Below, in pieces: positions 7,863 through 24,570 of a DNA stretch of 64,000 nucleotides. The stretch is from Hydrogenophaga sp. (GTDB taxonomy: Bacteria; Pseudomonadota; Gammaproteobacteria; Burkholderiales; Burkholderiaceae_C): assembly GCA_011391495.1 (NCBI GenBank), contig JAABQK010000011.1, forward strand, positions 1 to 64,000, given 5' to 3'. The notes below the pieces were generated by a model, which was not told where the DNA came from, ran no database searches, and was given only the letters and a program-made list of their open reading frames with translations. A program made the position numbers and the translations under genes. The stretch's first letter is position 1. The number at the start of each line of letters is the position of its first letter.

Positions 7863-8609
7863 GTCCCGCGTCACGGTGCACCAGGTGGACGTGCCGTCGT
7901 TGCCGTAGATGCGCGTGACACCCAGTGCCTGCAGCCGCAGACGGGCCAGCGCCGGCAGGCTGGCCAGGTACTTGCCCGGAATCTGTGCCGCCTTGAAACC
8001 GCCCAGCGCTGCCGGGTCTTGCGACACAAACGCCTCGCGAACCTCGGCACCCACTTCAAACACGGTCGGCCCGATGCAGGGCCCAAGCCAGGCCAGGGTG
8101 CTGGCCGCCACGCTGTCGCGCCCGGCCTGGGGGTCTTGCATCTGGACGGCGTGAACGAACGCCGCGAACGTGGTCTCCAGAACACCCTGCCCCGCTTGAG
8201 CGGCGCCCTCGCCCGCCAGACCGCGCCAGCCGGCATGGGCCGCTGCCACCACGGTGCCCGCCGAGTGGGTGAACAGCACCGGCAGACAGTCCGCCACCAT
8301 GATGGTGCAGGCCACCCCCACCTGGCTGGCGAGGCAGGCATCGGCTGGCGTACCGTCGGGTGTGCGGTCATCCAGCGCGACCACCGCCGTGCCATGCACC
8401 TGCTGCAGAAAGACCGGCCGCACGCCCAGGGCGTCGGCCAGCCGCAGGCGATTGGCCGCCACCGCCGCGGGGTCGTCCCGCACATGGTCGCCCAGATTGA
8501 AGCTGTCAAACGGCGGCACCGACACGCCGCCGCTGCGCGTGGTGAACAGCGCCCTGACGCGAGCCGGCGCGGGCCATTCGGGCACCAGCCAGTCTTCTGG
8601 CTGGCGCAT
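7782..8609 (-). CDS. pgeF: Peptidoglycan editing factor / multicopper polyphenol oxidase family
   Basis: A 275-aa protein of the YfiH/PgeF family (DUF152). Members hydrolyse mis-incorporated amino acids from the peptidoglycan precursor and have also been described as purine nucleoside phosphorylases and laccases. Metal-site motifs are present: His in FLQQVHGTAVV, Cys in VADCLPVLF and His in AAHAGWRGL, plus LGPCIGPTVFEVG. The start codon overlaps the maiA stop by one base (TGATG), so the two are translationally coupled. The 3' end runs 81 bp into a convergent small membrane-protein gene. Confidence 0.88.
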   Translation of the reverse strand: MRQPEDWLVPEWPAPARVRALFTTRSGGVSVPPFDSFNLGDHVRDDPAAVAANRLRLADALGVRPVFLQQVHGTAVVALDDRTPDGTPADACLASQVGVACTIMVADCLPVLFTHSAGTVVAAAHAGWRGLAGEGAAQAGQGVLETTFAAFVHAVQMQDPQAGRDSVAASTLAWLGPCIGPTVFEVGAEVREAFVSQDPAALGGFKAAQIPGKYLASLPALARLRLQALGVTRIYGNDGTSTWCTVTRDSAFFSHRRDAARLGSTGRMAACIWLT

Positions 8610-9250
8610 CAGGCCTCGAAGTCCGGACAGGACGAAGGCTGGGCCTGCTGGAAAGCGGGCAGCGCCATGCAGGCATCAAACGCCGCCATGGTGCGTGGCA
8701 GGCCGTCGAGCGGGGTGTTGAAACGCTGGCCGTTGAAGATCTGCGGCACCAGGCAGCAGTCGGCCAGCGTGGGCGTGTCGCCATAGCAGTAGCGCGAAGC
8801 GGGCAACTGGGCCAACTGGCGCTCGAACGCCTCCAGGCCGGTGCGCACCCAGTGCCGGTACCACGTGTTCTTGGCCTCCTCGTCCACCTTGAGTTCCCTG
8901 GCCAGGTACTTCAACACGCGCAGGTTGTTGATCGGGTGGATCTCGCAGGCGATCGACTGCGCCAGCGCACGCACCCGGGCCCGTCCGATCGCATCGGCCG
9001 GCACGAGTGCCGGTTCGGGATGCATCTCGTCGAGGTACTCGATGATCGCCATGGATTGCGACAGGCGCGTGCCGTCGTCGAGCTCCAGCAAGGGCACCAG
9101 CTGGTCGGCCGCGATGTCGCCATAGGCGGGCTGCTTGTGCTCGCCCTTGGCCAGGTGCACCGGCACGTATTCGTAAGGCATGCCCTTGAGCGCGAGCGCG
9201 ATGCGCACGCGGAAAGAGGCCGAGGAGCGGAAGTAGTTGTAGAGCTTCAT
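8609..9250 (-). CDS. maiA: Maleylacetoacetate (or maleylpyruvate) isomerase, GST zeta class
   Basis: A 213-aa glutathione-S-transferase-fold protein. The N-terminal SSASFRVRIALALKG motif, with the catalytic Ser in the SSA(S/C) position, defines the zeta class that isomerises cis-maleyl intermediates of tyrosine or gentisate catabolism using glutathione. SMAIIEYLDE is the glutathione-binding turn, and C-terminal helices complete the fold. No other homogentisate or gentisate gene lies adjacent, so which substrate it serves is open. It is coupled to pgeF by a one-base overlap and is divergent from the enoyl-CoA hydratase gene. Confidence 0.88.
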   Translation of the reverse strand: MKLYNYFRSSASFRVRIALALKGMPYEYVPVHLAKGEHKQPAYGDIAADQLVPLLELDDGTRLSQSMAIIEYLDEMHPEPALVPADAIGRARVRALAQSIACEIHPINNLRVLKYLARELKVDEEAKNTWYRHWVRTGLEAFERQLAQLPASRYCYGDTPTLADCCLVPQIFNGQRFNTPLDGLPRTMAAFDACMALPAFQQAQPSSCPDFEA

Positions 9251-9351
9251 GAAGGCCGAGGATAAACCGGTTGGCGCTGTTTCGATCCGCTGCCTTTATC
9301 CTGCGGATACCGACCGGCCAGACAGGCCGTGCCAACCCATCGAGGGCACCC

Positions 9352-10044
9352 ATGGACATCCACACCCACATCACCGACGGCGTGCTTCACATCCGCCTGC
9401 AACGGCCGCAGCGGCTCAACGCGCTGACGCTGTCGATGAGCCGCGAACTGCTGGATGCCGTGCAAAGCGGTGTGGCCGACGCCTCGGTGCGGGTGCTGCT
9501 GCTCAGCGGCGAAGGCCGCGCCTTTTGTGCCGGCAAGGACCGTGACGATCCGGCCACGGGCGCGTTCGTGGACACGCTGCAGGCGCTCGCCCTGTGCCTG
9601 ATGAACGCACCGCAGCCTGTGGTCTGCGCCGTTCAGGGCTGGGCCGTGGGCGCGGGGCTGGAGCTGATGCTCAACGCCGACCTCGCGGTCGCGGCTCGCA
9701 GCTCACGATTCGCCCTGCCCGAGGTGCGGGTGGGCCTGTTCGGCACCGGTGGCATCGCGGCGCTGCTGCCGCGGCTGGTGGGCCTGCAGAAAGCCAAGGG
9801 TATGCTGATGCTGGGCGAAGAACTGGATGCCCAGGCGGCCGAACGGCTGGGCCTGGTGTGGACCGTGGTGGACGACGAGGTCCTGACCGATCGGGCATGG
9901 GCCATTGCGCGCCAGCTCGCATGCAGCGATCCCCGCCTGCTGGGTGAAATCAAGCGCCTGGTACACAGTGAAACCCTGGGCCAACTGGACGCGGTGCTGG
10001 CCCGCGAAGCCGCGGTACACGCGCGGCTGAGGGACGACACCTGA
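9352..10044 (+). CDS. Enoyl-CoA hydratase/isomerase family protein
   Basis: A 230-aa crotonase-fold protein. It shows the N-terminal LQRPQRLNALTLSM motif, the oxyanion-hole segment SGEGRAFCAGKD and the second hole region QGWAVGAGLELMLNADLAV. The Glu pair typical of dedicated hydratases is not obvious: GLFGTGGIAALLPRLVG occupies the region, so isomerase or another crotonase activity is equally possible. ATG 9352 gives the standard N-terminus. It stands alone on this strand between maiA and the ACP operon. Confidence 0.8.
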   Translation: MDIHTHITDGVLHIRLQRPQRLNALTLSMSRELLDAVQSGVADASVRVLLLSGEGRAFCAGKDRDDPATGAFVDTLQALALCLMNAPQPVVCAVQGWAVGAGLELMLNADLAVAARSSRFALPEVRVGLFGTGGIAALLPRLVGLQKAKGMLMLGEELDAQAAERLGLVWTVVDDEVLTDRAWAIARQLACSDPRLLGEIKRLVHSETLGQLDAVLAREAAVHARLRDDT

Positions 10045-10071
10045 AAAGCGTCCCTGCCCACCCTGTCCGCT

Positions 10072-10308
10072 CTAGCGAGACAGGTAACCGACCAGGCCGT
10101 GCAGGGTGAAGAGCTTCGGGTAGTCGCTCTCGGGTATGGGCACACCGCTGCCCCGGCTCAGGCCGATGATGAAATTGAGGAAGTCCATCGAGTCGAGGTC
10201 CAGGGCTTCGCGCAGGTCTTCCTGGTCAGCGACGCTGGACAGGTCGGCTTCGGGCGCAATGCCTGCAAGCACATCGGCGGCGAGTTGTCGGGTTTCGGCG
10301 GCATTCAT
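10072..10308 (-). CDS. Stand-alone acyl carrier protein
   Basis: A 78-aa phosphopantetheine-binding protein; the attachment site is Ser40 in LDLDSMDFLNF. It diverges from fatty-acid AcpP, with IPESDYPKL in place of the usual acidic helix II/III region, and it is not next to fab genes. Instead it lies 18 bp after the E2 gene as the last member of the operon ligase-E1alpha-E1beta-E2-ACP. That position suggests it accepts or delivers the acyl group handled by this complex; this is inference. Confidence 0.88.
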   Translation of the reverse strand: MNAAETRQLAADVLAGIAPEADLSSVADQEDLREALDLDSMDFLNFIIGLSRGSGVPIPESDYPKLFTLHGLVGYLSR

Positions 10309-10326
10309 GGTGGTTTTCGCAATGAC

Positions 10327-11568
10327 TCAGAGGTGTTCGGGGGATTGAAGGGCGCGGTCCAGTGCAGCGAGCAACTGACCACCCAGATGACCATCGCTGG
10401 CGCGGTGGTCCGCCGCCAGCGTGGTGTTCACGACCGGACGCACCTGCACCTGGGCGCCCACCACCCAAGGGCGCTGCACCACCCGGCCAAAACCGACGAT
10501 GGCCACCTGGGGCGGGTAGATCACGCCGAGCACGCTCTCAGCACCCCGTTCGCCCAGGCTGGTCACGGTGGTGGTGGGGTCGGTCAGCTCGGAGCTGCGC
10601 AGGCCACCGGCGCGCGCGCGCTGCACGAGGTCGCGCAGCGCCAGCATCAGTTCCGGCAACGACTTCCGGTCCACATCGTGAATCGCCGGTGCCACCAGGC
10701 CGCCCCCACGCAGCGCAATCGCCCAGCCGATGTGGATGCCCTGCCCGGCACGGAAGGCACCATTCTCAAAGAAGCCGTTGAGCTGGGGGACCTCCTGCAA
10801 CGCCTTCGCCGTGGCCTTGAGCAGCAGGACCGCACTGAGCAGACGCTGCTCGGGCGGCCGGTTGAGGTTCCAGGTTTCCAGCCAGGCGCTGGCGGCAGAA
10901 AAGTCGATGCTTTCGCTGAGGTAGTAGTGCGGGATCTCGCGCTTGGAGCGGCTCATGGCCGCCGCTATGGCCTGCCGCATCTGGGCGGCATCAAAGCCAC
11001 CCGCGCGCGCCCGCGGTGCGGCCGTTGACGTGGTTGCCGGGGTGCCAGGCGGTTTCACCAGCACCGCTGCCCGCTCCACATCCGCCAGCGTGACCGCGCC
11101 ATCCGCACCGCTTCCTGGCAAGACATCGGGATTCAGACCCAGCGCTTGCGCACGCTGGCGTGCCGCCGGGCTGACCCGCGCGCGGGTCGAACGCGGGCCG
11201 GGCGCTGGAGCCGACGGCGCCGGTGCGGGCGACCGCACCACCCCGAGAGGTCCTTCCGTGCGCGCAGGGACGGCAGGCACCGCGCCCAGCGGCGCCCCTG
11301 GCACGGAGGAGGGAATCGGGCCGCTCGCAGCCGCTTTAGCAGGGGTCACCAGCGCCAGCACCGCGCCCACCGGCAGGTCTTCGTTCAGCGTCGCCAGATG
11401 GTCGATCACGCCGTCGAGAAAAATCTCCACGTCGATGGCGCCCTTGTGGGTTTCCACCACGGCCACGACGTCGCCCGACTTCACGCGGTCGCCCGGCTTC
11501 ACCAGCCACTGGGCCACCTTGCCGGTCTCCATGTCGGCGCCCAGGGAGGGCATGAGGAATTCGGCCAT
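10327..11568 (-). CDS. 2-oxoacid dehydrogenase-type complex, E2 acyltransferase
   Basis: A 413-aa dihydrolipoamide acyltransferase. A single lipoyl domain spans residues 1-75, with Lys42 in the ETHKGAIDV loop. A Pro/Ala-rich linker follows, then a peripheral subunit-binding domain ([15 protein letters not shown]...[12 protein letters not shown], about 140-180), another linker and the catalytic domain ending in the HRASDG motif (His388, Asp392). All elements of a functional E2 are present. It is followed by an ACP and preceded by E1 beta 8 bp upstream. No E3 (lipoamide dehydrogenase) lies nearby, so E3 must be shared with another complex. The substrate could be pyruvate, acetoin or another 2-oxoacid. 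Confidence 0.9.
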
Positions 11569-11576
11569 GACTCGGA

Positions 11577-12569
11577 TCACCCCGGCTTCACCAGATGGCG
11601 TGCCACAGCCACGATGTCGCCCACCTGCGGCAGCGCCGCTTCTTCCATGTGCGCAGCGTAGGGCACCGGCACCTCGCGGCTGCAGACGCGGCGCACCGGG
11701 GCATCGAGTTCGTAGAGCGCATCCTCGGCCAGCCGGGCCGATATCTCGGCCGAGATGGAGCCGCTTCTCCAGCCCTCGTCCACGATCACACAGCGGTGCG
11801 TTCGGGCCACAGATCCGATGACCGTGGCCGTGTCGAGCGGGCGCAGCACGCGCAGGTCGATCACTTCGGCGCTGATGCCTTCGGCGGCCAGCGCATCGGC
11901 CGCTGCCAGACACTTGGGCAGGCTGTTGCCGTAGGTCACCAGACTCACGTCCCGGCCAGGGCGGCGCACCTTGGCGTGTTCGATATCCACCGCCGTCAGC
12001 GCCGGATCGAGTTCGCCCTCGGTGTTGTAGAGCACCACGTGTTCGAAGATCAGCACCGGGTTCGGATCGGCCAGCGCCGCGGCCAGCATGTGGCGTGCGT
12101 CGTCCACCGTGGCAGGCACCAGCACCTTGAGCCCCGGGATGTGCGCGTACCAGCCCTCCAGGCTGTGCGAATGCTGCGCCGCCAGCTGCCGCCCGCCTCC
12201 GGTGGCCATGCGGATGACCAGCGGCACGGCAAACTGCCCGCCGGACATGTGCGACAGCGTGGCCGCGTTGTTCATGATCTGGTCCAGCGCGAGCAGGCTG
12301 AAGTTGCAGGTCATGATCTCGACGATGGGCCGCAGGCCCGCCACGGCCGCCCCGATGCCCGCACCGGTGAAACCGTTCTCGGCCAGCGGCGTGTCGCGGA
12401 TGCGGTCGGGACCGAACTCTTCGAGCAGGCCCTTGGTCACGGCGTAGCAGCCGCCGTACTTGCCCACGTCCTCGCCCATCACGAAACAGCGCGGATCGGC
12501 CAGCAGGGCCTCACGGATCGCCTGCCGGCAGGCTTCGCGGTAGGTCATCTTCACCTGCTCCGCGTTCAT
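11577..12569 (-). CDS. 2-oxoacid/acetoin dehydrogenase-type E1 beta subunit
   Basis: A 330-aa transketolase-like subunit (pyrimidine-binding and C-terminal domains). Landmarks are the N-terminal [15 protein letters not shown], the ThDP-contacting [26 protein letters not shown] and [15 protein letters not shown], and the C-terminal [11 protein letters not shown]. It pairs with E1 alpha to decarboxylate a 2-oxo substrate (or cleave acetoin) and reductively acylate the E2 lipoyl group. It overlaps the E1 alpha stop by 4 bases (ATGA), indicating coupled translation. Confidence 0.92.
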
Positions 12570-13564
12570 GCCACGTGCTCCTGCACGATGCTGTCCATCA
12601 GGACAAAGCGCTCCAGCTGATCCAGCGGTTCGAGGGTCCCGGCCTCAGCGATCGCCACCGCCGCGCCGATCTCGGCGGCGATGCCGGCGTCGATCGCGGC
12701 CGACTCGTCCGGACTCAACAGATGGTTGTCGCTCATCCAGTGGCGCAGGCGCTCGATCGGGTCGCGCTGTTTCCAGTCCTCGATTTCTTCGCGCGTGCGG
12801 TAGGCCTGGGTGTCGAACATCGAGTGCGCGCGAAAGCGGTAGGTGCGGCACTCGAGGAAGAACGGACCCCTGCCGGCCCGGATGTGTTCCACCGCCTGCC
12901 GCGCGGCCGTCTCCATCCGGACCGGATCCATCGCATCGACCTGCGCACTGGCCATGCGGTAAGCCTCGGCCTTGCGGTAGACATCGGTCTGTGACTCCGA
13001 ATCTTCCAGCGGTACGCCCATGGCGTAGAGGTTGTTTTCGCAGACAAACAGCACTGGCAGCTGCCAGATGGCGGCGAGGTTCATGCTCTCGTGGAACGCT
13101 CCCTCGGCCACGGCACCTTCACCGAAAAAGCAGGCTGTGATCGCGCCCGGGCGCAGCTGCTTGTCGGCCATGGCGATGCCCACGGCCAGCGGCAGGCCGC
13201 CGCCCACGATGGCGTTGCCGCCGAAGAAGCGCCGCTCACGGTCGAAGATGTGCATGGAGCCGCCTCGGCCCCGACAGCAGCCTTCCAGCTTCCCCAGCAT
13301 CTCGGCCAGCAGCGCATCCATGGGCACGCCGCGCGCCAGCGCCTGGCCGTGCTCGCGGTAGGTGGCGACCACCGCGTCGCGCGCCTCCAGGGCACCCATC
13401 ACGCCCACCGCCACCGACTCCTCGCCGTCGTACAGGTGCAGGAAGCCGCGGATCTTCTGCGCCTGGTAGAGCTCGACGCACTTGGCCTCGAAGCGGCGGA
13501 TGCGCAGCATCTCGCGATACAGCCGGTGCAGATGGGCACGGTCCAGGTGGATCTTGTCGGTCAT
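12566..13564 (-). CDS. 2-oxoacid/acetoin dehydrogenase-type E1 alpha subunit
   Basis: A 332-aa ThDP-binding subunit. It opens with [18 protein letters not shown], has the substrate-channel region [15 protein letters not shown], the Mg-ThDP GDG-like motif as [19 protein letters not shown] with Asn in ENNLYAMG, and the phosphorylation-loop analogue [13 protein letters not shown] 13564 gives a standard E1 alpha N-terminus. The protein is most like the compact PdhA/AcoA type of two-subunit E1s. It lies 10 bp after the ligase gene in the five-gene operon. Confidence 0.92.
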
Positions 13565-13574
13565 CACGTCGCCC

Positions 13575-15338
<1,764 letters not shown>

Positions 15339-15473
15339 CTGCGTCTCCTCGGTTCGGGTCTGGGGGCCCCACCCGTGTCGCGCCGACGCCTGCACGCCAG
15401 CGCTCTCAGGACAGGAAAAAGCCCGGTACAGCGCGACGGGGTGTCCTCCCCGCTGACGCGATCACGGTGGTGG

Positions 15474-15950
15474 CTACTGGGTACTGCCGATGTGCATCCG
15501 GTAGGACGCACCGTTGGAGAACGTGCAGTTTCCTGCGCCCTGGTACGGAGTGTTCATCTGGTATTCGCAGGACATGTACATCCCCCGGGGGCTGAAAGCA
15601 CTGGCCACACCACGGCGCTCCTCATTGGAAACCCGCGTCGCCTCGCCCGTCAACACCTCGCCCATGTAGGACACATTGAACACGCCCTTACCCGTCATGA
15701 GGTTGGTCACGCTGCCCGAAATCACGCCAATCCTCGCCGCCTCCTCGTTGGACGGATACAGGCGCACCGGCAAACTGGCCGGCGCACCGGCCCGTGGACC
15801 AGCGGCCGGTCCAGGCCCCGGCCCCAGCGGGGGCAGCGGGTAGTGCTGGTAGATGACGCTGCCGTCCGGTGCACGTTCGGGCACCACATAACAGGCGCTC
15901 AGCACGGTAGCGGACAGCATCAGGACAGACAGACGAATGGCGGGGTGCAT
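15474..15950 (-). CDS. Putative outer-membrane lipoprotein
   Basis: A 158-aa protein with a lipoprotein signal (hydrophobic stretch ending LSAC, lipidated Cys at about residue 20) and then a Pro/Gly-rich segment (YPLPPLGPGPGP). The C-terminal domain contains SGSVTNLMTGKGVFNVSYMGEVLTGEATRV and two further cysteines (SCEY, GNCT) that could form a disulfide. The domain resembles small envelope lipoproteins of unknown role; no specific family is recognised. GGAGACCCGT precedes ATG 15950. Confidence 0.72.
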   Translation of the reverse strand: MHPAIRLSVLMLSATVLSACYVVPERAPDGSVIYQHYPLPPLGPGPGPAAGPRAGAPASLPVRLYPSNEEAARIGVISGSVTNLMTGKGVFNVSYMGEVLTGEATRVSNEERRGVASAFSPRGMYMSCEYQMNTPYQGAGNCTFSNGASYRMHIGSTQ

Positions 15951-16027
15951 ACGGGTCTCCTCACGGGTTGTGGCCACAAAACCGGTTTCAATCTACTCCT
16001 GCCCACCGCGCCGAAGATTGATCTGGC

Positions 16028-16969
16028 TCAAGCCCGCGCTGCACCCTGAGAGGCGATCGGCGCGGACCGCTGCAACTGGCCCAGCGCCTGCACCACCACC
16101 GGCACGATGCTCACCGCGTTGCTCGCATGGGGGATGCAGTCGGTGCTCCAGATCTGCCCAGCACCCGCCTCACGGATCAGCTGCACCGCACCGGCCGCGA
16201 ACAGCGCGTGCGTCACCGCCACATCCACCGAAGCGGCACCCGCCGCTTTCAGCAGCCGTGCAGCCTGCGCCACCGTGTGGCCCGAGCTGGCCACATCGTC
16301 CATGAGCACCACGGCCCGCCCGGCAAACGGCAGGTCGGGCAACTGAATGTCCACCTGGCGGTCGCCGTGGCGCGTCTTGCGGCACACGCCACTCTCCCAG
16401 CCGTGGCGCTGCGCAGCCTGCGCCACCCATTGCCAGGACTCTTCGTCGGGGCCGATCAGGAGCACGCCCCTGCGCTGGCTGGCGATGAAATCGGCCAGCA
16501 GCGGCGCGCCGCTGAGCACGATGGCGTCCTTCACCGGTACCGCCTCTTCCAGCGTCGCCACCCGGTGCAGGTGCGGGTCCACCGTGATGACCGCGTCAAA
16601 CAGGCTGGCGAGGAATCCGCCCACGATGCGCTGGCTGACCGCCTCGCCGGGGTTGAATGCGATGTCCTGCCGCATGTAGGCCAGGTAGGGCGCCACCAGG
16701 GTGAGGTGCAACGCGCCGAGCTGGCGCGCGGTCTGCCCGGCCAGCAGCAGCTCGACCAGTTTCTCGTTCGGCTGGTGCAGGCCACGCCAGAACACCACGC
16801 GCGGCGGCAGCGACTCGGGCAGGCGCAGGCGCAGCTCGCCGTCGGGAAAACGGTGGCGCTCGATCACCGCCAGCGTCAGGCCGGCGGCCTGGGCCGCCGC
16901 GCCGGCCATGCCCGCCTCGTCCTCGAAACAGAGCAGGCTGCCAGGTGCAGCGGCGAGGGCTTGGTCCAT
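16028..16969 (-). CDS. Divergent ribose-phosphate pyrophosphokinase (PRPP synthetase) family protein
   Basis: A 313-aa protein of two tandem phosphoribosyltransferase-type domains. The ATP-site element YMRQDIAFNPGE matches the RQD motif of PRPP synthetases, VDPHLHRVATLEE stands in for the DLHxxQxxGFF site, and VLMDDVASSGHTVAQAA is a clear PRPP-binding loop. The usual SPDxGG segment is replaced by GPDEESWQWV. It is shorter and more divergent than housekeeping Prs and closest in style to archaeal-type enzymes. Its start overlaps the stop of the AMP-phosphorylase-like gene by one base, so the two proteins are made together; a joint role in nucleotide ribose salvage is inferred. Confidence 0.82.
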   Translation of the reverse strand: MDQALAAAPGSLLCFEDEAGMAGAAAQAAGLTLAVIERHRFPDGELRLRLPESLPPRVVFWRGLHQPNEKLVELLLAGQTARQLGALHLTLVAPYLAYMRQDIAFNPGEAVSQRIVGGFLASLFDAVITVDPHLHRVATLEEAVPVKDAIVLSGAPLLADFIASQRRGVLLIGPDEESWQWVAQAAQRHGWESGVCRKTRHGDRQVDIQLPDLPFAGRAVVLMDDVASSGHTVAQAARLLKAAGAASVDVAVTHALFAAGAVQLIREAGAGQIWSTDCIPHASNAVSIVPVVVQALGQLQRSAPIASQGAARA

Positions 16970-18546
16970 CAGAACTCCACGAAAACGTGTGGCACCTGGT
17001 CCGCGTGGCCCAGGCTGTAGCCGCTAGCCCTGGCGCAGGCCTGGCGGGCAAACTCGAGGTCGGCCGGGTAGTTCGCGTAGACGCGGTACAGCACGTCCCC
17101 CGCGGCCACGCGGTCACCCAGCTTGCGCAACAGGTCCACGCCGGCACCCTTCACCTTGGGTGCGCCGGCCAGCCGGGCGATCTGCGCGATCTGCAGGTTG
17201 TCGATTCCCACCACAACGCCCGCTTCCGTGGCGGTGATGTCAAACGTGAGCGCACCCAGCGGGGGATGGTGGTGGTCGAACTCATGGGCACCCTGAGCCT
17301 GGATGATGGCCCGCATCTGTGCCAGGGCACGACCGGAATCGAGAATGTCGCGCGCAATGCCGAACCCGTCACCACCGCGGACATCGGGACTGCATTCGAT
17401 CAGCCGGCCCGCCAGCCGCAAGGACTTCTGGCGCAGGTCGTTCGGCGCGTCGGGGTCGTTCTCCAGCACCTGCATCACGTCGCGGGCCTCGAGTACCGGG
17501 CCCACACCGCGGCCCACCGGCTGGCGGCCGTCGGTGATGACCACATCCAGCGACAGGTGCATGCGCTGCGCGACGTATTCGAACAGGCGGCGCAGGCGCT
17601 GCGCTTCGGGCATGGATCGGACCTTGGCGCTGGGTCCGATCGGAATGTCCAGCACCAGGTGGGTGGCCCCGGCGGCGATCTTCTTCGACAGAATGGAGGC
17701 CACCATCTGGCCGGGCGAGTCGATGGACAGTGGTCGTTCGACCGAAATCAGCACATCGTCGGCCGGTGACAGATCGGCCGTGCCACCCCACGCCAGGCAG
17801 CCACGGTGGTCACGCACGATGTCGATGAGTTGCTCGAACGGCAGCTCCACATTGGCCAGCACCTCCATGGTGTCGGCGGTACCGGCCGGAGACGTGATGG
17901 CGCGCGAAGATGTCTTGGGAAACACCAGACCGTAGGCCGACACGATGGGCACCACCAGCATCGAGGTGCGGTTGCCCGGGATGCCGCCGATGCAGTGCTT
18001 GTCCACCACCAGAGACTCGTGCCAGTCGAGCGTGCGGCCGCTGGCCACCATGGCTTCGGTCAGGAAATACACCTCCTCGCGGTCGAGCTCGCTGCGGTTG
18101 CTGGCCACCACGAAAGCGGTGAGTTCGATCTTCGAATACCGCAGGTCGGCGATGTCGCGCACGATGGCATGGAAATCGTCGCGGGTCAGACGCTCGCCGT
18201 TGATCTTGCGAAACAGGGCCGGGATGGACTCTGGCGGTTCGGCCTGCGACACCGACGCCGGATGTCCGTCTTCCACTTCCAGCCGGGCGAACGCGTCTTC
18301 GGAAACGCCCAGTTCATTGCAACCCACGATGGACGCGTCGTTCACCACGTTGAGCGTGGCCAGGATGCGTTTGCCGTTGGCGCGTATCTCCACCTTGGAC
18401 AGCGCCTGAAAACCCTCGGCCCGGTAGACTGCGCAGTCGCGGTGCAGGTAGGCCACGTTCTCGTGGTAGGTGTCGATGGCCACGCGCCTGAGCGTGAGAC
18501 CCATGTGCCCCGCCTCAGCGGGTGCCTTTTCGGTGATCGTCTCCAT
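16969..18546 (-). CDS. Archaeal-type AMP/thymidine phosphorylase family protein
   Basis: A 525-aa enzyme of the long nucleoside phosphorylase family usually annotated putative thymidine phosphorylase. An N-terminal extension of about 85 residues precedes the DeoA-like core, as in archaeal AMP phosphorylases. The phosphate-binding region reads [20 protein letters not shown], the archaeal AMPpase pattern, rather than the GRGLGHTGGT of bacterial thymidine phosphorylase. AMP phosphorylase converts NMP plus phosphate to base plus ribose 1,5-bisphosphate. Substrate here is inferred from the motif only. The ATG at 18546 is chosen; no strong Shine-Dalgarno is seen. It is coupled to the PRPP-synthetase-like gene and lies 36 bp after gntR. 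Confidence 0.82.
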
Positions 18547-18582
18547 GTGCCAACGATACACCGATCGCCCACCCGGCCCGGT

Positions 18583-19302
18583 TCAGCCCACCACCAGCCG
18601 CATGCCGGGCAGCACGCGCTCGGACTCGGCACGCTTCTCCAGCGCCAGTCGCATGTTCATCTGCGCCACCTCGGTGTGCTCCACGGCGAGCGCCTGTGCG
18701 CGTGTGCCCTCGCCACGCTGCAGCGCATCAAACAACATGTGGTGCTGCCGGTGCGCATAGAGCATCCAGTCGCGGTCCAGCGCCACCGTGCCCTGCATCG
18801 GCAGCATGGCCGAGGCGGGGGCGAACGGCAGCTTGTCGTTGAGTGCCACGGCGCGCTGCAGGGCGCGGTTGCCACAGGCCTGCAGGATCAGCGCGTGAAA
18901 GCGGTCGTTCATCACCGCGTAGGCCGCATAGCCTTCGATCGTGAGCGGGTTGTTGGTCAGCAGACGGTCGCCTTCAAGCAAACAGGCCTGCAGATCACCC
19001 TGCAACTGGCGCGACACGCCGTGCTCGGCCACGAGCCGCGCGGCCATGCCTTCCAGATGACCCCGTACCGCAATCGCATCGGTCACTTCCTGTGCCGTGA
19101 ACTGGCGCACCAGGTACTTGCCAGTGTCGTTGGCCTCCACCAGACCTTCCTGCTCCAGCGTGACGAGGGCGGCCCGCACAGGCGTGCGCGAGGCCCCCAG
19201 ACGCTCGGCCAGCTGCTGCTCGGCCAGGCGCTGACCCGGCGCGAAATCGCCACTCAGGATCAGGTCGCGCAGTTGCATCAGAACGGTTTCTTGCAGACTC
19301 AT
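18583..19302 (-). CDS. GntR-family transcriptional regulator (FadR/FCD type)
   Basis: A 239-aa regulator. The winged HTH is at residues 1-70 (LRDLILSGDFAPGQRLAEQQ, then RLGASRTPVRAALVTLEQEGL) and an all-helical FCD ligand-binding domain occupies about 95-225, with candidate metal/ligand His and Asp residues (MNDRFHALIL, HRQHHMLFDAL). FCD regulators usually bind organic acids and control adjacent catabolic genes. The gene is divergent from the Rieske/GS-like cluster, and the 92-bp spacer has a clean dyad. It is also on the same strand as, and just upstream of, the AMP-phosphorylase-like pair, so it may affect both. Confidence 0.9.
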   Translation of the reverse strand: MSLQETVLMQLRDLILSGDFAPGQRLAEQQLAERLGASRTPVRAALVTLEQEGLVEANDTGKYLVRQFTAQEVTDAIAVRGHLEGMAARLVAEHGVSRQLQGDLQACLLEGDRLLTNNPLTIEGYAAYAVMNDRFHALILQACGNRALQRAVALNDKLPFAPASAMLPMQGTVALDRDWMLYAHRQHHMLFDALQRGEGTRAQALAVEHTEVAQMNMRLALEKRAESERVLPGMRLVVG

Positions 19303-19328
19303 GGCTCAAACTGTACACTGAACCAGGA

Positions 19329-19344
19329 AAACGGGATACCGTTT
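19329..19344. promoter_or_regulatory. Candidate GntR operator, AAACGG-GATA-CCGTTT
   Basis: A 6-bp perfect inverted repeat with a 4-base centre in the intergenic region between gntR and the divergent oxygenase gene. Its place and length suit a GntR/FCD dimer. Binding is inferred. Confidence 0.45.
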
Positions 19345-19394
19345 CGGAACCACTTCACTTCCACACGAGCCGGACCCGCCGGCGGAGACATCGC

Positions 19395-20792
19395 ATGAAA
19401 GCCGAACAGAACCAACGCATCACCCAGGTCGGCCCGGGCACGCCCGGTGGCGCTCTGCTGCGCCGCTACTGGCAACCCGTCGCCCTGCTCGACGAGTTCA
19501 ACCCAGAACTCGACCCTGCCATGGGTGTGCGCCCGGTGAAGGCGGTGCGCGTGCTGGGCCAGGATTTCGTGCTGTTCAAAGACGCACAGGGCGCCTATGG
19601 ACTGCTCGACCGCGACTGCCCGCACCGCGGTGCCGACCTCGCCTTCGGTCGCAACGAGGGGGATGGCCTGCGCTGCCCCTTCCACGGCTGGAAGTTCGAT
19701 GTGAGCGGCCAGTGCACGCAGACCCCGGGCGAGCCCCCGGGGAGCACGCTGTGCACGCGCATCCGCCAGCGCAGTTACCCGCTGCTGGAAAAGGCCGGCA
19801 CCCTGTTCGGCTGGTTCGGCCCCGAGGGCAGCACGCCACCACCCTTCCCGGCGCTGGACTGCTTCGAAGCGCCGGCCACACACAGCTTCGCCTTCAAGGG
19901 CCTGTGGCACTGCAACTGGCTGCAGGCCTTTGAGGTCGGCATCGACCCGGCGCACGCGTCCTACCTGCACCGCTTCTTCAACGACGCCTCGCTTGAAGGC
20001 AGCTACGGCAAGCAGTTCCGCGGAGCGAGCGCGGGCGAAGTAGGCGGCGAACGCTGGCCGATGACGAAAGTGATGCGCGAGTTTGACCAGCCCGACATCT
20101 CCTTCGAGGCCATGCCGTATGGCCTTCGCCTGACTGCGCTGCGCAAGATGACCGACGCGCTCACCCATGTGCGCATCACCAACGCGGTGTTTCCGCAGAC
20201 CTTCGTGATCCCGCTGTCCGAGACCATGACCATCACGCAGATGCATGTGCCAGTGGACGACACGCGCAACTACTGGTACGCCTTCTTCACCAGCTTCGCG
20301 GCGCCCGTGGACAAGGACACCATGCGCCAGCAGCGCCTGGCCGCGGTCACCCTGCCCGACTACATCCCGAAGTCCGGCCGGCACAACCACTGGGGCTTCA
20401 ACCCCGAAGAACAGCAGGGCCGCACCTACCTCGGCATGGGCGAGGACGACATCAACGTGCACGACCAGTGGGCCTGCGAGAGCATGGGCGCGATCCAGGA
20501 CCGCACCCGCGAACACCTGGGCACGACCGACAAAGTGATCATGGCGAACCGGCGCCTGCTGCTGCAGGCCATCGACACTGCCGAACAAGGCGGCACGCCG
20601 CCTGGCATCGCCGACCCGGACCTGCATCCGCGTATCCACGGTCCGGACACGGTGGACGGCATCGCACCTGCCGACACCTGGCAGACCTGGTGGCAGCACG
20701 CGGTGCGCGCCAAACGCGAAGGCGCTGCCTGGAAAAATCCGGGCCTGAAGCGGGCAGAAACCGCCGCGAACGAGAGCACCCTCGCGCCATGA
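19395..20792 (+). CDS. Rieske non-haem iron oxygenase, alpha subunit
   Basis: A 465-aa ring-hydroxylating/O-demethylating type oxygenase. The Rieske [2Fe-2S] ligands are Cys75-His77 (CPHRGAD) and Cys94-His97 (CPFHGWK). The mononuclear iron site is Asp184-x2-His187-x4-His192 (GIDPAHASYLH). Its length and lack of a beta-subunit gene suggest a homo-oligomeric phthalate dioxygenase/vanillate demethylase-like enzyme. Electrons could come from the ferredoxin two genes downstream, but no reductase gene is adjacent. It ends in ATGA, overlapping the GS-like gene by 4 bases. The substrate is unknown. Confidence 0.9.
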   Translation: MKAEQNQRITQVGPGTPGGALLRRYWQPVALLDEFNPELDPAMGVRPVKAVRVLGQDFVLFKDAQGAYGLLDRDCPHRGADLAFGRNEGDGLRCPFHGWKFDVSGQCTQTPGEPPGSTLCTRIRQRSYPLLEKAGTLFGWFGPEGSTPPPFPALDCFEAPATHSFAFKGLWHCNWLQAFEVGIDPAHASYLHRFFNDASLEGSYGKQFRGASAGEVGGERWPMTKVMREFDQPDISFEAMPYGLRLTALRKMTDALTHVRITNAVFPQTFVIPLSETMTITQMHVPVDDTRNYWYAFFTSFAAPVDKDTMRQQRLAAVTLPDYIPKSGRHNHWGFNPEEQQGRTYLGMGEDDINVHDQWACESMGAIQDRTREHLGTTDKVIMANRRLLLQAIDTAEQGGTPPGIADPDLHPRIHGPDTVDGIAPADTWQTWWQHAVRAKREGAAWKNPGLKRAETAANESTLAP

Positions 20793-22267
20793 CGCATTTC
20801 GCCGAGCGCTGCGATCAGCACGACGCCACCCGGGAAGCCGCCTGCCTGCAAGCCGCCCGGCACATCGAAGCCAGCGGCATCGAGCGCGTGCGCCTGGGCT
20901 GGTGCGATGCGCACGGCATGCTGCGCGGCAAGACCCTGATGGCGCACGCCGCCATCCAGGCGCTGCGCAACGGCGTGGGCATGGTCGGCACGCTGATGCT
21001 CAAAGACTCAGCCGACCGCACCGCCTGGAAAGTGTTCGAGCCCGGCGGCGCACACGACCTGCCCGGCTTTGCCAACGCCGCCAACCTGATGCTGCTGCCC
21101 GATCCCGCCAGCTTCACCCCCCTGCCCTGGCAGGCGAACACCGGCTGGCTGCGCTGCCAGCCCTGGTTTGCCGACGGCACGCCGGTTCCGCTGGACACCC
21201 GGCGCGTGCTGCAACAGGCACTGGCCCGCCTGGCCGACGCCGGCTACGGACTGAAGACCGGGCTGGAGGTCGAGTTCCACATCTACCGCATCACCGACAC
21301 CGCACCGCAGCTCGACCCGGAACTCGCGTCCTGGCCCGGCCTGCCGCCCATGGTGGAGATGATCCACCCCGGCTACAACCTGCAGGCCGAGGCCATGATC
21401 GACATGGCCGACGAACCGCTGGCCATCGTCATGCGCACGGCGCGGGCGCTGGGTCTGCCGCTGCAGTCGCTGGAGATCGAGCTCGGCCCGAGCCAGGTCG
21501 AAGCCGTGTTCGATGCCACTGACGCGCTCACCGCGGCCGACCAGATGGTGCTGTTCCGCAACGGCGTGCGCCAGGCGCTGCGCCGCGCTGGCTACCACGC
21601 CAGCTTCATGTGCCGTCCGCCATTCCCCAACATCATGTCCAGCGGCTGGCACCTGCACCAGTCGCTGGTGGACCTGACCACCGGTCGCAACGCCTGCGTG
21701 CGCGAGACACCCGCCCCCGGCAGCACCCCCGTCGACGCCGCGCACACGCTGTCCGACGCCGGTACCCATTGGCTCGCCGGCCTGCTCGCTCATGCCAGAG
21801 GCATGACGGCGCTGTGCACGCCGACCATCAACGGTTTTGCCCGCTTCCGGCCCCATGCGCTGGCGCCCCAGTCGGTCATCTGGGGCCAGGACAACCGCGG
21901 CGCCATGCTGCGCGTGGTCGGCGGCGCAGGTGACCGGGCCACTCGCATCGAGAACCGTGTCGGCGAACCGGCCGCCAACCCTTATCTCTATATGGCCGCG
22001 CAGATTCACGCTGGACTTGACGGGCTGGCGCGCGGCCTGCTGCCGCCACCCGCCTGTGAGGCGCCCTACGCCGAAGGCAGCGAAAAAATCCCGACCCAGC
22101 TGAGCGATGCCTTGTCCGCCCTGAGAGAGGACGCGGCGCTCAATGCAGGGCTGGGCGAAGACTTCGTGCGCTACTTCTGCCGCATCAAGCAGCAGGAGAT
22201 CGATCGCCATGCACAGGCCGAAGACAAGACCGATTTCGAACGACGCGAATACTTCAGCCGCATCTGA
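20789..22267 (+). CDS. Glutamine-synthetase-family ligase (gamma-glutamylation type)
   Basis: A 492-aa GS-fold protein. It shows the beta-grasp N-domain (SGIERVRLGWCDAHGMLRGKT), the metal-site GLEVEFHIY, the ammonia/metal region SSGWHLHQSL and the C-terminal TRIENRVGEPAANPYLYMAA. Adenylylation and housekeeping GlnA features are not obvious. Proteins of this class next to oxygenases (as in aniline or isopropylamine catabolism) glutamylate amines before oxidation, which is the inferred role here. Translation is coupled to the Rieske gene by the ATGA overlap. Confidence 0.85.
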   Translation: MTHFAERCDQHDATREAACLQAARHIEASGIERVRLGWCDAHGMLRGKTLMAHAAIQALRNGVGMVGTLMLKDSADRTAWKVFEPGGAHDLPGFANAANLMLLPDPASFTPLPWQANTGWLRCQPWFADGTPVPLDTRRVLQQALARLADAGYGLKTGLEVEFHIYRITDTAPQLDPELASWPGLPPMVEMIHPGYNLQAEAMIDMADEPLAIVMRTARALGLPLQSLEIELGPSQVEAVFDATDALTAADQMVLFRNGVRQALRRAGYHASFMCRPPFPNIMSSGWHLHQSLVDLTTGRNACVRETPAPGSTPVDAAHTLSDAGTHWLAGLLAHARGMTALCTPTINGFARFRPHALAPQSVIWGQDNRGAMLRVVGGAGDRATRIENRVGEPAANPYLYMAAQIHAGLDGLARGLLPPPACEAPYAEGSEKIPTQLSDALSALREDAALNAGLGEDFVRYFCRIKQQEIDRHAQAEDKTDFERREYFSRI

Positions 22268-22287
22268 ACCTGCTGGCCATCCTCACC

Positions 22288-22611
22288 ATGATCAAGATCC
22301 GATTCATCGCTGCCGACCAGTCGGTGCAAGACATCCAGGCCGCACCCGGCCAGAGCCTCATGAAAGCCGCCGTGGACGCCAACGTCACAGGCATCGAGGC
22401 CGACTGCGGCGGAACCCTCACCTGCGCCACCTGCCATGTGATGGTGGACGCCCCGTGGGCTGGCCGGCTGCCGCCGCCTGTGGCCGACGAGCGCGACATG
22501 CTGGACTTTGCCGCCAGCCCGGTGGAACCCGGTAGCCGCCTGAGCTGCCAGATTGCGCTCACGCCCGAGCTCGATGGCCTCGTCGTGCGACTGCCCGCGT
22601 CGCAGCACTGA
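22288..22611 (+). CDS. [2Fe-2S] ferredoxin, adrenodoxin/plant-like
   Basis: A 107-aa soluble electron carrier. Cluster ligands are in ADCGGTLTCATCHV (Cys-x5-Cys-x2-Cys), and the fourth Cys is in RLSCQIAL near residue 90. The DERDMLDFA segment is the usual acidic helix. It lies 20 bp after the GS-like gene and is the probable electron donor to the Rieske oxygenase of this cluster. Confidence 0.9.
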   Translation: MIKIRFIAADQSVQDIQAAPGQSLMKAAVDANVTGIEADCGGTLTCATCHVMVDAPWAGRLPPPVADERDMLDFAASPVEPGSRLSCQIALTPELDGLVVRLPASQH

Positions 22612-22683
22612 CCGTGTCGGACGGGGCGCACGACCCACGCCATCCCTATACTGACACTCCACCCCAACTGCCGAGAGCACGCC

Positions 22684-23379
22684 ATGAGCTACGTCTTCCC
22701 GCCACCCCCTGTCGTTTCCGTGCCTGTGGTGGGCCGCGCCGAACGCTTCCCGGTACACCGCATCTATTGCGTGGGCCGCAACTACGAAGAGCACGCGAAG
22801 GAAATGGGTTTCACCGGCCGTGAACCGCCCTTCTTCTTTCTCAAACCGGCCGACACCATCGTGGTGGCCGACGCCAGCCAGACAGCGGTCATCCCCTACC
22901 CCAGCCTCACGGCCAACCTGCACCATGAAATTGAACTCGTGGTCGCCATCGGCAAGGGAGGGCGCAACATCCGCGCCGAAGACGCAGGGCAGCACATCTT
23001 CGGCTATGCCGTCGGCCTGGACATGACGCGGCGCGACCTGCAGACCGAGATGAAGAAGCAGGGGCGTCCGTGGTGCATCGGGAAAGCCTACGACCAGTCC
23101 GCCCCCATCGGCCCCATCACACCCGCCACTGATGCCGGCGACATCCACAACGCCACCATCTGGGTACAGGTCAATGGCAGCGACCGCCAGCGCAGCCAGG
23201 TCAGCAAGCTCATCTGGAACGTGGCCGAGACGATCGAGCACCTCTCGACCGCCTGGGAACTGCAGCCTGGCGACCTGATCTACACCGGCACCCCGGAGGG
23301 CGTGGCCGCCGTGGTGCGCGGCGACACCATGACCGGCGGCGTCGAGGGTCTGACCGGCATCAGCGTCCAGGTCGCCTGA
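22684..23379 (+). CDS. Fumarylacetoacetate hydrolase family protein
   Basis: A 231-aa FAH-fold protein. The N-terminal IYCVGRNYEEHAKEMG, KPADTIV, the metal ligand pair in HHEIELVVAIGKGG and the Asp in YAVGLDMTRRDLQ match single-domain FAH proteins such as acylpyruvate hydrolases and 2-keto-4-pentenoate-type enzymes. These cleave or decarboxylate beta-diketo acids at the end of ring-cleavage pathways. In this cluster it could act on the oxidised, opened product. The exact substrate cannot be read from sequence. Confidence 0.88.
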   Translation: MSYVFPPPPVVSVPVVGRAERFPVHRIYCVGRNYEEHAKEMGFTGREPPFFFLKPADTIVVADASQTAVIPYPSLTANLHHEIELVVAIGKGGRNIRAEDAGQHIFGYAVGLDMTRRDLQTEMKKQGRPWCIGKAYDQSAPIGPITPATDAGDIHNATIWVQVNGSDRQRSQVSKLIWNVAETIEHLSTAWELQPGDLIYTGTPEGVAAVVRGDTMTGGVEGLTGISVQVA

Positions 23380-23517
23380 CCCGGGTGGTCCATGCCCATT
23401 CCGAACGACCCGCGCTGCGGGTTTGACCTCTGACGCCAAAGGCCAGAGAACCTTTACCCTCGACGGGTCTTCAGCCTTCGGCAACTCTTACCCCGATACC
23501 ACTCAGGAGAACATTCC

Positions 23518-24570
23518 ATGATCCAGCGCAGAACCCTGCTCCAGTCCGGTGCCGCCGTCGCCTTCGGGGTACCCGCCCTCGTCGGCTTTGCCCAGCAAAG
23601 CGTCACGCTCAAGTTCCACACCTTCATGTCGCCACAGTCCAATGTGTGGGTCAACATGCACAAGGCCTGGATGGACAAGGTCACCAAGGACTCGGACGGC
23701 CGCATCAAGTTCGAGGCATATCCCGCGATGCAGCTGGGCGGCTCGCCGGTGCAGTTGTTCGACCAGGCCAAGGACGGCGTGGTGGACATCGTCTGGACCC
23801 TGCCCGGCAACACCCCGGGGCGCTTCCCGCGCATCGAGGCCTTCGAACTGCCATTCATGATGAACAACGCGGAGGCCACGTCCAGAGCCTTCTGGGAATA
23901 CGTGCAGACCGTTGCCAAGGACGAATTCAGGGATGTGCAGCCGATCGCCTTGCAGGTGCACGGTCCGGGCATGTTCCACATGCGCAACAAGCAAATCCGC
24001 ACGGCCGATGACCTGCGCGGCTCCAAGGTGCGCGGCCCCACCAGGCAGATCACGAAAATGCTCGGCTACCTGGGCGCCACGCCCGTGGGCATGCCGCTGC
24101 CACAGATCACCGACTCGCTCTCCAAGGGCGTGATCGACGGCTGCGTGATACCGTGGGAAGTGGTGCCTTCCGTCAAGGTGCAGGAGCTGGCCAAGTTCCA
24201 CAGCGAGTTCGATCCCGCAGGTGGCGCGCTCTACACCACCACGTTCATCATGGCGATGAACAAGACGAAGTACGCCTCCTTGCCGCCGGACCTCAAAGCC
24301 GTCATCGACAAGAACTCCGGCATGGAGACCTCGGCTTGGCTAGGCAAGGTGCAGCAACAGGGCGACGTGGCCGGTCGTGAGTCGGCCGTCAAGCTCGGCA
24401 ACACCATCTACACCATCCCCGCGGCCGAAGCACAGGAATTCAAGCGCAAGGCCCGCCTGGTGGAAGTCGAGTGGATGCAGGACATGGACAAGCGCGGCTT
24501 CAACGGCAAACAGTTGCTCGACACCGCCAAGGCCCTGATCGCCAAACACGGCAAAGCCACCAAGGCCTGA
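23518..24570 (+). CDS. TRAP transporter solute-binding protein, DctP family
   Basis: A 350-aa periplasmic binding protein. The N-terminus RRTLLQSGAAVAFG is a Tat-like signal. The family features are KFHTFMSPQSNVW, PAMQLGGSP, the conserved RGPTRQITKMLGYLGATPVGMPL substrate-Arg region and DGCVIPWEVVP. TRAP transporters carry carboxylates with a Na gradient. No DctQ/DctM membrane genes are in the window, so the membrane partner is encoded elsewhere. It follows the FAH gene by 138 bp, and AGGAGAACATTCC precedes the ATG. A weak stem (23409-23423) in the gap suggests possible separate transcription. Confidence 0.88.
   Translation: MIQRRTLLQSGAAVAFGVPALVGFAQQSVTLKFHTFMSPQSNVWVNMHKAWMDKVTKDSDGRIKFEAYPAMQLGGSPVQLFDQAKDGVVDIVWTLPGNTPGRFPRIEAFELPFMMNNAEATSRAFWEYVQTVAKDEFRDVQPIALQVHGPGMFHMRNKQIRTADDLRGSKVRGPTRQITKMLGYLGATPVGMPLPQITDSLSKGVIDGCVIPWEVVPSVKVQELAKFHSEFDPAGGALYTTTFIMAMNKTKYASLPPDLKAVIDKNSGMETSAWLGKVQQQGDVAGRESAVKLGNTIYTIPAAEAQEFKRKARLVEVEWMQDMDKRGFNGKQLLDTAKALIAKHGKATKA

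Follow-up and report, generated by a model that had tools for sequence, protein, structure and literature searches.

The six-gene cluster at positions 18,583 to 24,570 of the window (the whole analysed stretch, 64,000 nucleotides of Hydrogenophaga sp. contig JAABQK010000011.1) is almost certainly orthologous to the sad operon, and the explanation that fits best overall, which we favour with some reservation, is that it is a Hydrogenophaga sad operon for a para-aminoaryl acid, most likely 4-aminobenzoate. The operon is described from Hydrogenophaga, where it consists of genes for the 4-aminobenzenesulfonate 3,4-dioxygenase SadA, the glutamine synthetase SadB and a ferredoxin; it is reported to cause the deamination of 4-aminobenzenesulfonate (sulfanilate) in strain PBC and to show fair conservation across the Hydrogenophaga genomes known at publication (PMC5632844). 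The natural substrate of the sad dioxygenase group is posed as an unsolved question (PMC5632844, PMC3704786). The initial annotation, in which the gene combination was said not to match a pathway that could be named, is wrong on this point, since the cluster corresponds to the operon described in these sources. What is new here is the recognition of sad in the window, the narrowing of its substrate and a hypothesis of recruitment through one residue; the operon itself was already known.

As in the sad operon of H. intermedia PBC, a Rieske oxygenase, a glutamine-synthetase-like protein and a ferredoxin are encoded together in the window. The sulfanilate-type version is compared through another genome of the genus, G405, and not through the PBC sequences. 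The G405 block (locus L178) repeats the gene order of the window (GntR, SadA, SadB, ferredoxin, FAH, DctP and Nudix), and the proteins of the two blocks are 76% (SadA), 74% (SadB) and 75% (ferredoxin) identical. When considering the SadA tree, both sequences fall within one clade of 28 rows (99/98), where 25 rows are titled or numbered as Hydrogenophaga and three (L047, L049 and L088) are titled only as Betaproteobacteria or Comamonadaceae; L063, on a contig titled Hydrogenophaga, sits outside this clade. SadA is found (E-value 1e-60) in 54 of the 67 genomes of the genus, including 41 of the 44 genomes of high quality. The initial annotation had made its reading depend on the genes occurring together elsewhere, and this is confirmed: a Rieske gene adjoins the SadB relative in 73 of the 80 loci on named contigs (the genome_contigs set), six of the others being truncated where the contig ends and one (L097) lacking such a gene, which argues that the grouping is not due to chance. 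The sadA–sadB pair is present on contigs labelled Beta-, Alpha- and Gammaproteobacteria, and also on single contigs of metagenome-assembled genomes labelled Acidimicrobiia and Flavobacteriales, these labels being taken as given. The sequence sets comprise 134 distinct SadB sequences (from 155 loci) and 121 SadA sequences, many of which are close relatives (joining the SadB rows at 98% identity leaves 124 groups), and some genomes are counted twice, once under a genome number and once under a contig name. A second sad-type cluster is seen in one Hydrogenophaga genome (L179, G432:C55:1-20000, positions 8170-19998); it is near to the Polaromonas JS666 plasmid version, and it encodes a reductase of its own as well as an ABC transporter of the branched-chain type.

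The best PDB match of SadB is NpaA1 (8wwu, 331 bits), the next PDB sequence scoring 151 bits, and by these bit scores SadB is closer to NpaA1 than to the ammonia-using glutamine synthetases, as is characteristic of the GoaS/NpaA1 class. Six genes of the window's own genome match PF00120, with SadB having the lowest score (246 bits, compared with 447 bits for a gene on contig C32). A housekeeping glutamine synthetase is rejected on these scores, in agreement with the earlier proposal of a glutamine-synthetase-like ligase of another kind. In NpaA1, the bottleneck of the tunnel is described as being lined by F75, F86 and W235, with M81 and W235 being decisive and V201 shaping the pocket (PMC11335346). 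The residues of the window SadB at the positions of F75, S80 and M81 of NpaA1 are K72, R77 and T78. The F75 position is a lysine in all 134 distinct SadB sequences, and the S80 position is an arginine in 124, a histidine in six, a lysine in three and a glutamine in one; the initial tunnel alignment covered 57 sequences, that of the window together with those of 48 genome_contigs loci (out of 80) and 8 plasmids (out of 13). In the other five glutamine synthetase proteins encoded by the window genome, the F75 position reads M, N and Q in three and falls in a gap in two, and neither there nor at the S80 position is a lysine or an arginine seen. These tunnel lysine and arginine residues point to an anionic, acidic aryl amine, whose amino group SadB is predicted to glutamylate.

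Several other observations agree with an acidic aryl amine, which is a quite probable class of substrate when judged from the sequences, whereas for 4-aminobenzoate specifically the chances appear to be about even. Arg260 of SadA, aligned with R244 of phthalate dioxygenase, is unchanged in 79 of 79 aligned homologues, as are H187, H192, D357 and D184, and this arginine points to an acidic substrate, the role of R244 being to bind a carboxylate. The best PDB matches of SadA are 9ina, 7fhr and 7fjl. For DctP, they are 5im2 (582 bits), 7nr2 (310 bits) and 7nsw (256 bits); the solved proteins at 256-310 bits are presumably TarP and FcbT1, although these names are not in the PDB titles, and the closeness of DctP to these solved TRAP proteins, probable binders of aromatic acids, is also consistent with an acidic aryl amine.

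The plasmid relatives suggest an aminobenzoate-type substrate. The sample consists of 13 of the 602 SadA-matching plasmid records, being all those with at least 45% identity among the 40 best listed, and on six of the 13 (among the matches listed) PnbB, the 4-hydroxylaminobenzoate lyase of the 4-nitrobenzoate route (PF16155, 205 bits), is encoded within 12 kb of SadA. PnbB is held at an identity of at least 59% by 10 of 72,556 plasmid records, the six SadA plasmids being among these, and the six belong to two parts of the SadA tree. It is expected that 4-aminobenzoate would be the over-reduction product of 4-nitrobenzoate. The six clusters (five from Burkholderiaceae, one from Methylobacterium) resemble the window in having SadA (57-59% identical), SadB (46-50% identical) and a ferredoxin; unlike the window, they all have an FAD reductase and PnbB, and four have an amidotransferase, whereas no FAH or DctP match is found in the 10-12 kb on each side. 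In Palleronia, pca genes are located about 10 kb from SadA.

The proposed mechanism retains the general idea of the initial annotation (a carboxylated aromatic amine that is taken up, glutamylated and then oxygenated by the Rieske enzyme), although each of its reactions is still something that we infer. The substrate would be a para-aminoaryl acid with a negative charge, of which 4-aminobenzoate is the most likely, and SadB would use ATP and glutamate to attach a glutamyl group to its amino nitrogen. With electrons from the ferredoxin and from a reductase whose gene lies elsewhere, SadA would then dioxygenate the ring at the carbon that bears the amine and the one next to it, by which the nitrogen would be released and a catechol would be left, this being protocatechuate in the case of 4-aminobenzoate and 4-sulfocatechol in the case of 4-aminobenzenesulfonate in specialised strains. 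The protocatechuate ring would be cleaved by an extradiol dioxygenase encoded on contig C22 of the same genome. The TRAP protein DctP would import the aromatic acid, probably via a C22 permease after losing its own DctQM, FAH would be a late or clean-up enzyme acting on a diketo acid, and GntR would repress from the AAACGGKATACCGTTT operator.

The FAH-family protein is like fumarylpyruvate hydrolases and FAHD1-type enzymes when considering its PDB matches (6j5y, 296 bits; 4maq, 233 bits), it scores above no curated NCBIfam cut-off (best NF007967, 164 of 201 bits), and it is taken here as an accessory enzyme. In 44 of the 54 sadA-bearing genomes of the genus, no more than 5 kb separates its gene from sadA; in the other ten the gene is on another contig (seven), about 11 kb away (one) or absent (two). 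The alternative that survives best gives FAH a dedicated late role: the substrate would be another anionic amine (3-aminobenzoate, 4-aminosalicylate or a para-aminophenyl acid), degraded via a maleyl- or fumarylpyruvate-type intermediate. This proximity to sadA and the likeness to fumarylpyruvate hydrolases agree with it, as do the ordered FAH, DctM and DctP genes of 12 related loci, almost all of them in other Comamonadaceae or Burkholderiales, and the flavoprotein genes between ferredoxin and FAH in L066 and L072, the latter also having an ABM protein. It is nevertheless unlikely, as no gentisate-type dioxygenase or maleylpyruvate isomerase is found among the annotated neighbours (the plasmid tables and about 20 Pfam-scanned open reading frames, no genome-wide search having been made), and as FAH is not confined to genomes with SadA. 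It is present in 52 of the 54 genomes with SadA and in 8 of the 13 without (Fisher p 0.002, uncorrected for kinship and completeness), and these eight, in one of which (G429) the gene is at a contig end, weaken the idea that FAH strictly accompanies SadA.

The ferredoxin–FAH interval of L066 (Ramlibacter, 11815-16021) contains FAD_binding_3 and FAD_oxidored flavoproteins, and that of L072 (Polaromonas, 11851-16415) contains an ABM protein, TctC and FAD_oxidored; open reading frames like these inserts recur in other Comamonadaceae loci, which suggests that the inserted genes may encode steps absent from Hydrogenophaga. In H. aromaticivorans (L048, 12604-16799), an insert separates FAH from DctP. 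Its five open reading frames are two glycosyltransferases, one methyltransferase domain, one weak transporter match and one without any match, and it is rejected as a source of missing pathway genes.

It is also conceivable that sulfanilate is the substrate throughout the genus, as the published name says and as the deamination ascribed to the conserved operon of strain PBC would support, in which case strains without sulfocatechol genes would excrete 4-sulfocatechol. This is improbable when the distribution of the genes is considered. The 4-sulfomuconolactone hydrolase (NF042924) is above its cut-off only in G405 among the 67 genomes (603 versus 500 bits), and the window differs from this sulfanilate-type version in that the best match of its genome is at 209 bits. 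The G405 hydrolase gene lies beside a 3-carboxymuconate cycloisomerase-like gene, a match with 46% identity to the maleylacetate reductase of Novosphingobium resinovorum SA1 and a transposase-like gene, and this layout is the one reported for H. intermedia. Judged by the hydrolase gene, G405 is probably an H. intermedia genome. The SA1 maleylacetate reductase query has matches at 43-50% identity in 30 of the 67 genomes, so that it is not discriminating by itself; the window genome has no match to it at 1e-40. The downstream 4-sulfocatechol genes are a trait of sulfanilate mineralisation and not of the sad operon proper. The operon is thus common where the sulfocatechol hydrolase is not, and the 66 genomes without a hydrolase above the cut-off, set beside the 54 with SadA, suggest that the everyday substrate would be a natural acid such as p-aminobenzoate and not sulfanilate. 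The PBC authors themselves also favour a natural analogue as the probable original substrate of sad (PMC5632844).

Residue 78 of SadB, at the position of M81 of NpaA1, is in agreement with this distribution. It is a threonine in the window and in 132 of the 134 distinct SadB sequences altogether, a lysine in G405 and an asparagine in SA1, which is named as a 4-aminobenzenesulfonate degrader (PMC5632844); these two alone deviate, against the notion of sulfanilate as the general substrate. Position 78 is the only SadB column with at most four deviants that include both G405 and SA1 (19 columns have exactly two deviants, over 19 pairs), and no column of the SadA alignment with at most four deviants covers both sulfanilate-type sequences. 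The nearest SadB to that of G405 is from G427 (98.4% identical, eight differences, T78K among them), and in this genome, which is 97% complete and has Thr78, the 4-sulfomuconolactone hydrolase is not above the cut-off. The SadA sequences of G405 and SA1 are distant in the tree, which suggests that the change at residue 78 is convergent. It is possible, though we consider it doubtful, that sad is a near-core p-aminobenzoate pathway of Hydrogenophaga which has been recruited to sulfanilate at least twice independently, by capture of sulfocatechol genes and by a change of residue 78 (Thr to Lys in a Hydrogenophaga, Thr to Asn in Novosphingobium), and, jointly with this, that Lys72, which is invariant in the tunnel, is the mark of a whole class of ligases acting on anionic aryl amines. 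p-Aminobenzoate is a folate precursor, and some Hydrogenophaga are reported or predicted not to make it.

The AtdA, TdnQTA1A2B and NpaA1-A5 systems are like the one proposed for sad in that a glutamine-synthetase-like ligase glutamylates an aromatic amine ahead of Rieske dioxygenation, and were compared through five annotated loci, a sixth, unannotated, locus being left out. Four of these (L192, L193, L194 and L197) have annotated alpha and beta Rieske subunits, and an amidotransferase is adjacent in four of the five, whereas the window has a single alpha-type Rieske gene and no amidotransferase-like gene among the six genes of 18583-24570. The five ligases, of which two belong to near-identical systems, have F, F, V, H and F at the F75 position, that is phenylalanine in three and lysine in none, and T, A, G, A and A at the S80 position. 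Neutral aromatic amines (aniline, chloroanilines) are therefore a highly improbable substrate, even though NpaA1, which acts on naphthylamine and anilines, is the closest solved relative of SadB (PMC11335346), and an aniline-type system is rejected on the Rieske architecture and the tunnel residues.

Returning to the sad operon for a para-aminoaryl acid, its DctP has no DctQM beside it, in contrast to TarPQM and related aromatic-acid TRAP transporters, where DctQM is present (PMC3610893). Among the 12 loci with FAH, DctM and DctP in order, DctQ is confirmed in L072, and by comparison with these loci the Hydrogenophaga form looks like a shortened one which has lost DctQM. About 10 kb from the extradiol dioxygenase, contig C22 encodes DctM, DctQ and three DctP paralogues, which are the closest to the window DctP (about 50% identity, the next being 33%). 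From this genomic context, C22 would supply both the ring-cleavage step and the permease for the orphan DctP. The three DctP paralogues and the one DctQ-DctM pair are located at 6492-14105 of L204 (G000:C22:327901-345000), and several binding proteins for aromatic acids may share this single permease.

The initial annotation had listed a reductase, a deglutamylating enzyme and a ring-cleavage enzyme as missing, and none of these adjoins the sad genes of the window. Gan et al. (2012) reportedly found sadC, the reductase gene of strain PBC, separately, so that the absence of a reductase gene beside the sad genes of the window is not surprising. Among the matches listed, nine of the 13 close-SadA plasmids have an FAD ferredoxin reductase and five have an amidotransferase within 10-12 kb on either side, and a reductase match is seen in four of the 80 genome_contigs loci. 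A possible deglutamylase is encoded beside a glutamine-synthetase-like gene on contig C3. For ring cleavage, the earlier statement holds for the cluster but not for the genome, because contig C22 has a candidate. It encodes two LigB-family dioxygenases, one of which scores as the beta subunit of a class III extradiol dioxygenase (600 bits, cut-off 317); this subunit scores 578 bits with the protocatechuate 4,5-dioxygenase model, whose cut-off of 837 is out of reach for a single subunit. The neighbours of this dioxygenase resemble what we take to be LigC, LigI and LigJ.

A number of points weigh against 4-aminobenzoate and the proposed route. NCBIfam does not name these C22 neighbours as LigC, LigI or LigJ, protocatechuate 4,5-cleavage is not known to include an FAH step, and FAH is carried by genomes lacking SadA, as described above. 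The reductase search in the window's own genome, an 86% complete assembly, gives no convincing candidate; its three best matches have 32-41% identity, and the match at 41% has a Pyr_redox_dim domain, which is absent from the plasmid reductase. The nitrobenzoate link is provided by plasmid relatives whose SadA is 57-59% identical, and not one of the 80 genome_contigs loci has PnbB nearby. Arg77 of SadB is not invariant, the residue 78 pattern concerns two sequences and was noticed after looking, and the SA1 locus is assigned to sulfanilate by its context alone. The 4-aminobenzoate activity of sad-type members is a prediction, and no 4-aminobenzoate degradation pathway with sad-type genes is found in the literature searched, which is mostly openly accessible.

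The regulator gene diverges from sadA, as its orthologues do in other Hydrogenophaga and Comamonadaceae loci, and the shared spacer (19303-19394, 92 bp) contains the palindrome AAACGGGATACCGTTT, which bears out the dyad noted earlier. The interval between sadA and a divergently oriented GntR gene was compared over 59 loci, which give 45 distinct spacers; 42 of these have at most four mismatches from the perfect palindrome AAACGGTATACCGTTT, a level reached by 0.18% of shuffled spacers, and the other three have five mismatches, a level met by 1.9% of the shuffles. These spacers share kinship, so that the pattern is one of conservation and not of 45 independent events. The palindrome is likely to be the GntR operator. 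A second conserved block, TGTACAC, is located upstream of the palindrome in 44 of the 45 distinct spacers.

The six genes are found where the initial annotation had placed them, with profile matches that agree with its identifications (Table 1), and the Rieske and ligase genes overlap by ATGA, as it had stated. SadA has intact Rieske motifs (CxH-x16-CxxH at residue 75 and ExxxDxxHxxxxH at residue 180), the cysteine spacing of the ferredoxin is Cx5Cx2C, and FAH has the motif HHEIE at residue 80. The window's own genome comprises 3.2 Mb in 68 contigs, and its nearest relatives place it in Hydrogenophaga. Upstream of the sad regulator, at 16028-18561 (minus strand), is a thymidine/AMP-phosphorylase-type gene (NF003338, 705 bits), end to end with a ribose-phosphate diphosphokinase gene; this phosphorylase gene recurs at this place across many Hydrogenophaga loci.

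Table 1. Features of the sad locus, in positions of the window.
Feature	Position	Strand	Profile match or remark
GntR/FCD transcriptional regulator, divergent from sadA	18583..19302	-	PF00392 63 bits, PF07729 47 bits
Putative GntR operator, palindrome AAACGGGATACCGTTT	19329..19344	.	Conserved spacer site; binding inferred
sadA orthologue, single alpha-type Rieske oxygenase (phthalate dioxygenase/LigX type)	19395..20792	+	PF00355, PF19301
sadB orthologue, predicted gamma-glutamyl aryl-amide synthetase, glutamine-synthetase-like	20789..22267	+	PF00120 about 245-246 bits
Ferredoxin [2Fe-2S], sadD orthologue by position	22288..22611	+	PF00111 40 bits; TIGR02007 46 bits, under cut-off
FAH-family hydrolase/tautomerase, fumarylpyruvate-hydrolase-like	22684..23379	+	PF01557 189 bits
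TRAP solute-binding protein DctP, orphan	23518..24570	+	PF03480 142 bits

With these comparisons, the substrate question of the sad group is reduced to a test with one residue and two substrates. The combination of Lys72 with threonine, or with lysine or asparagine, at residue 78 may provide a sequence mark by which glutamine-synthetase-like ligases that take acidic aromatic amines could be predicted, and the sad operon would provide a concrete model for the way in which a natural pathway may be turned to an industrial pollutant, sulfanilate being a dye chemical.

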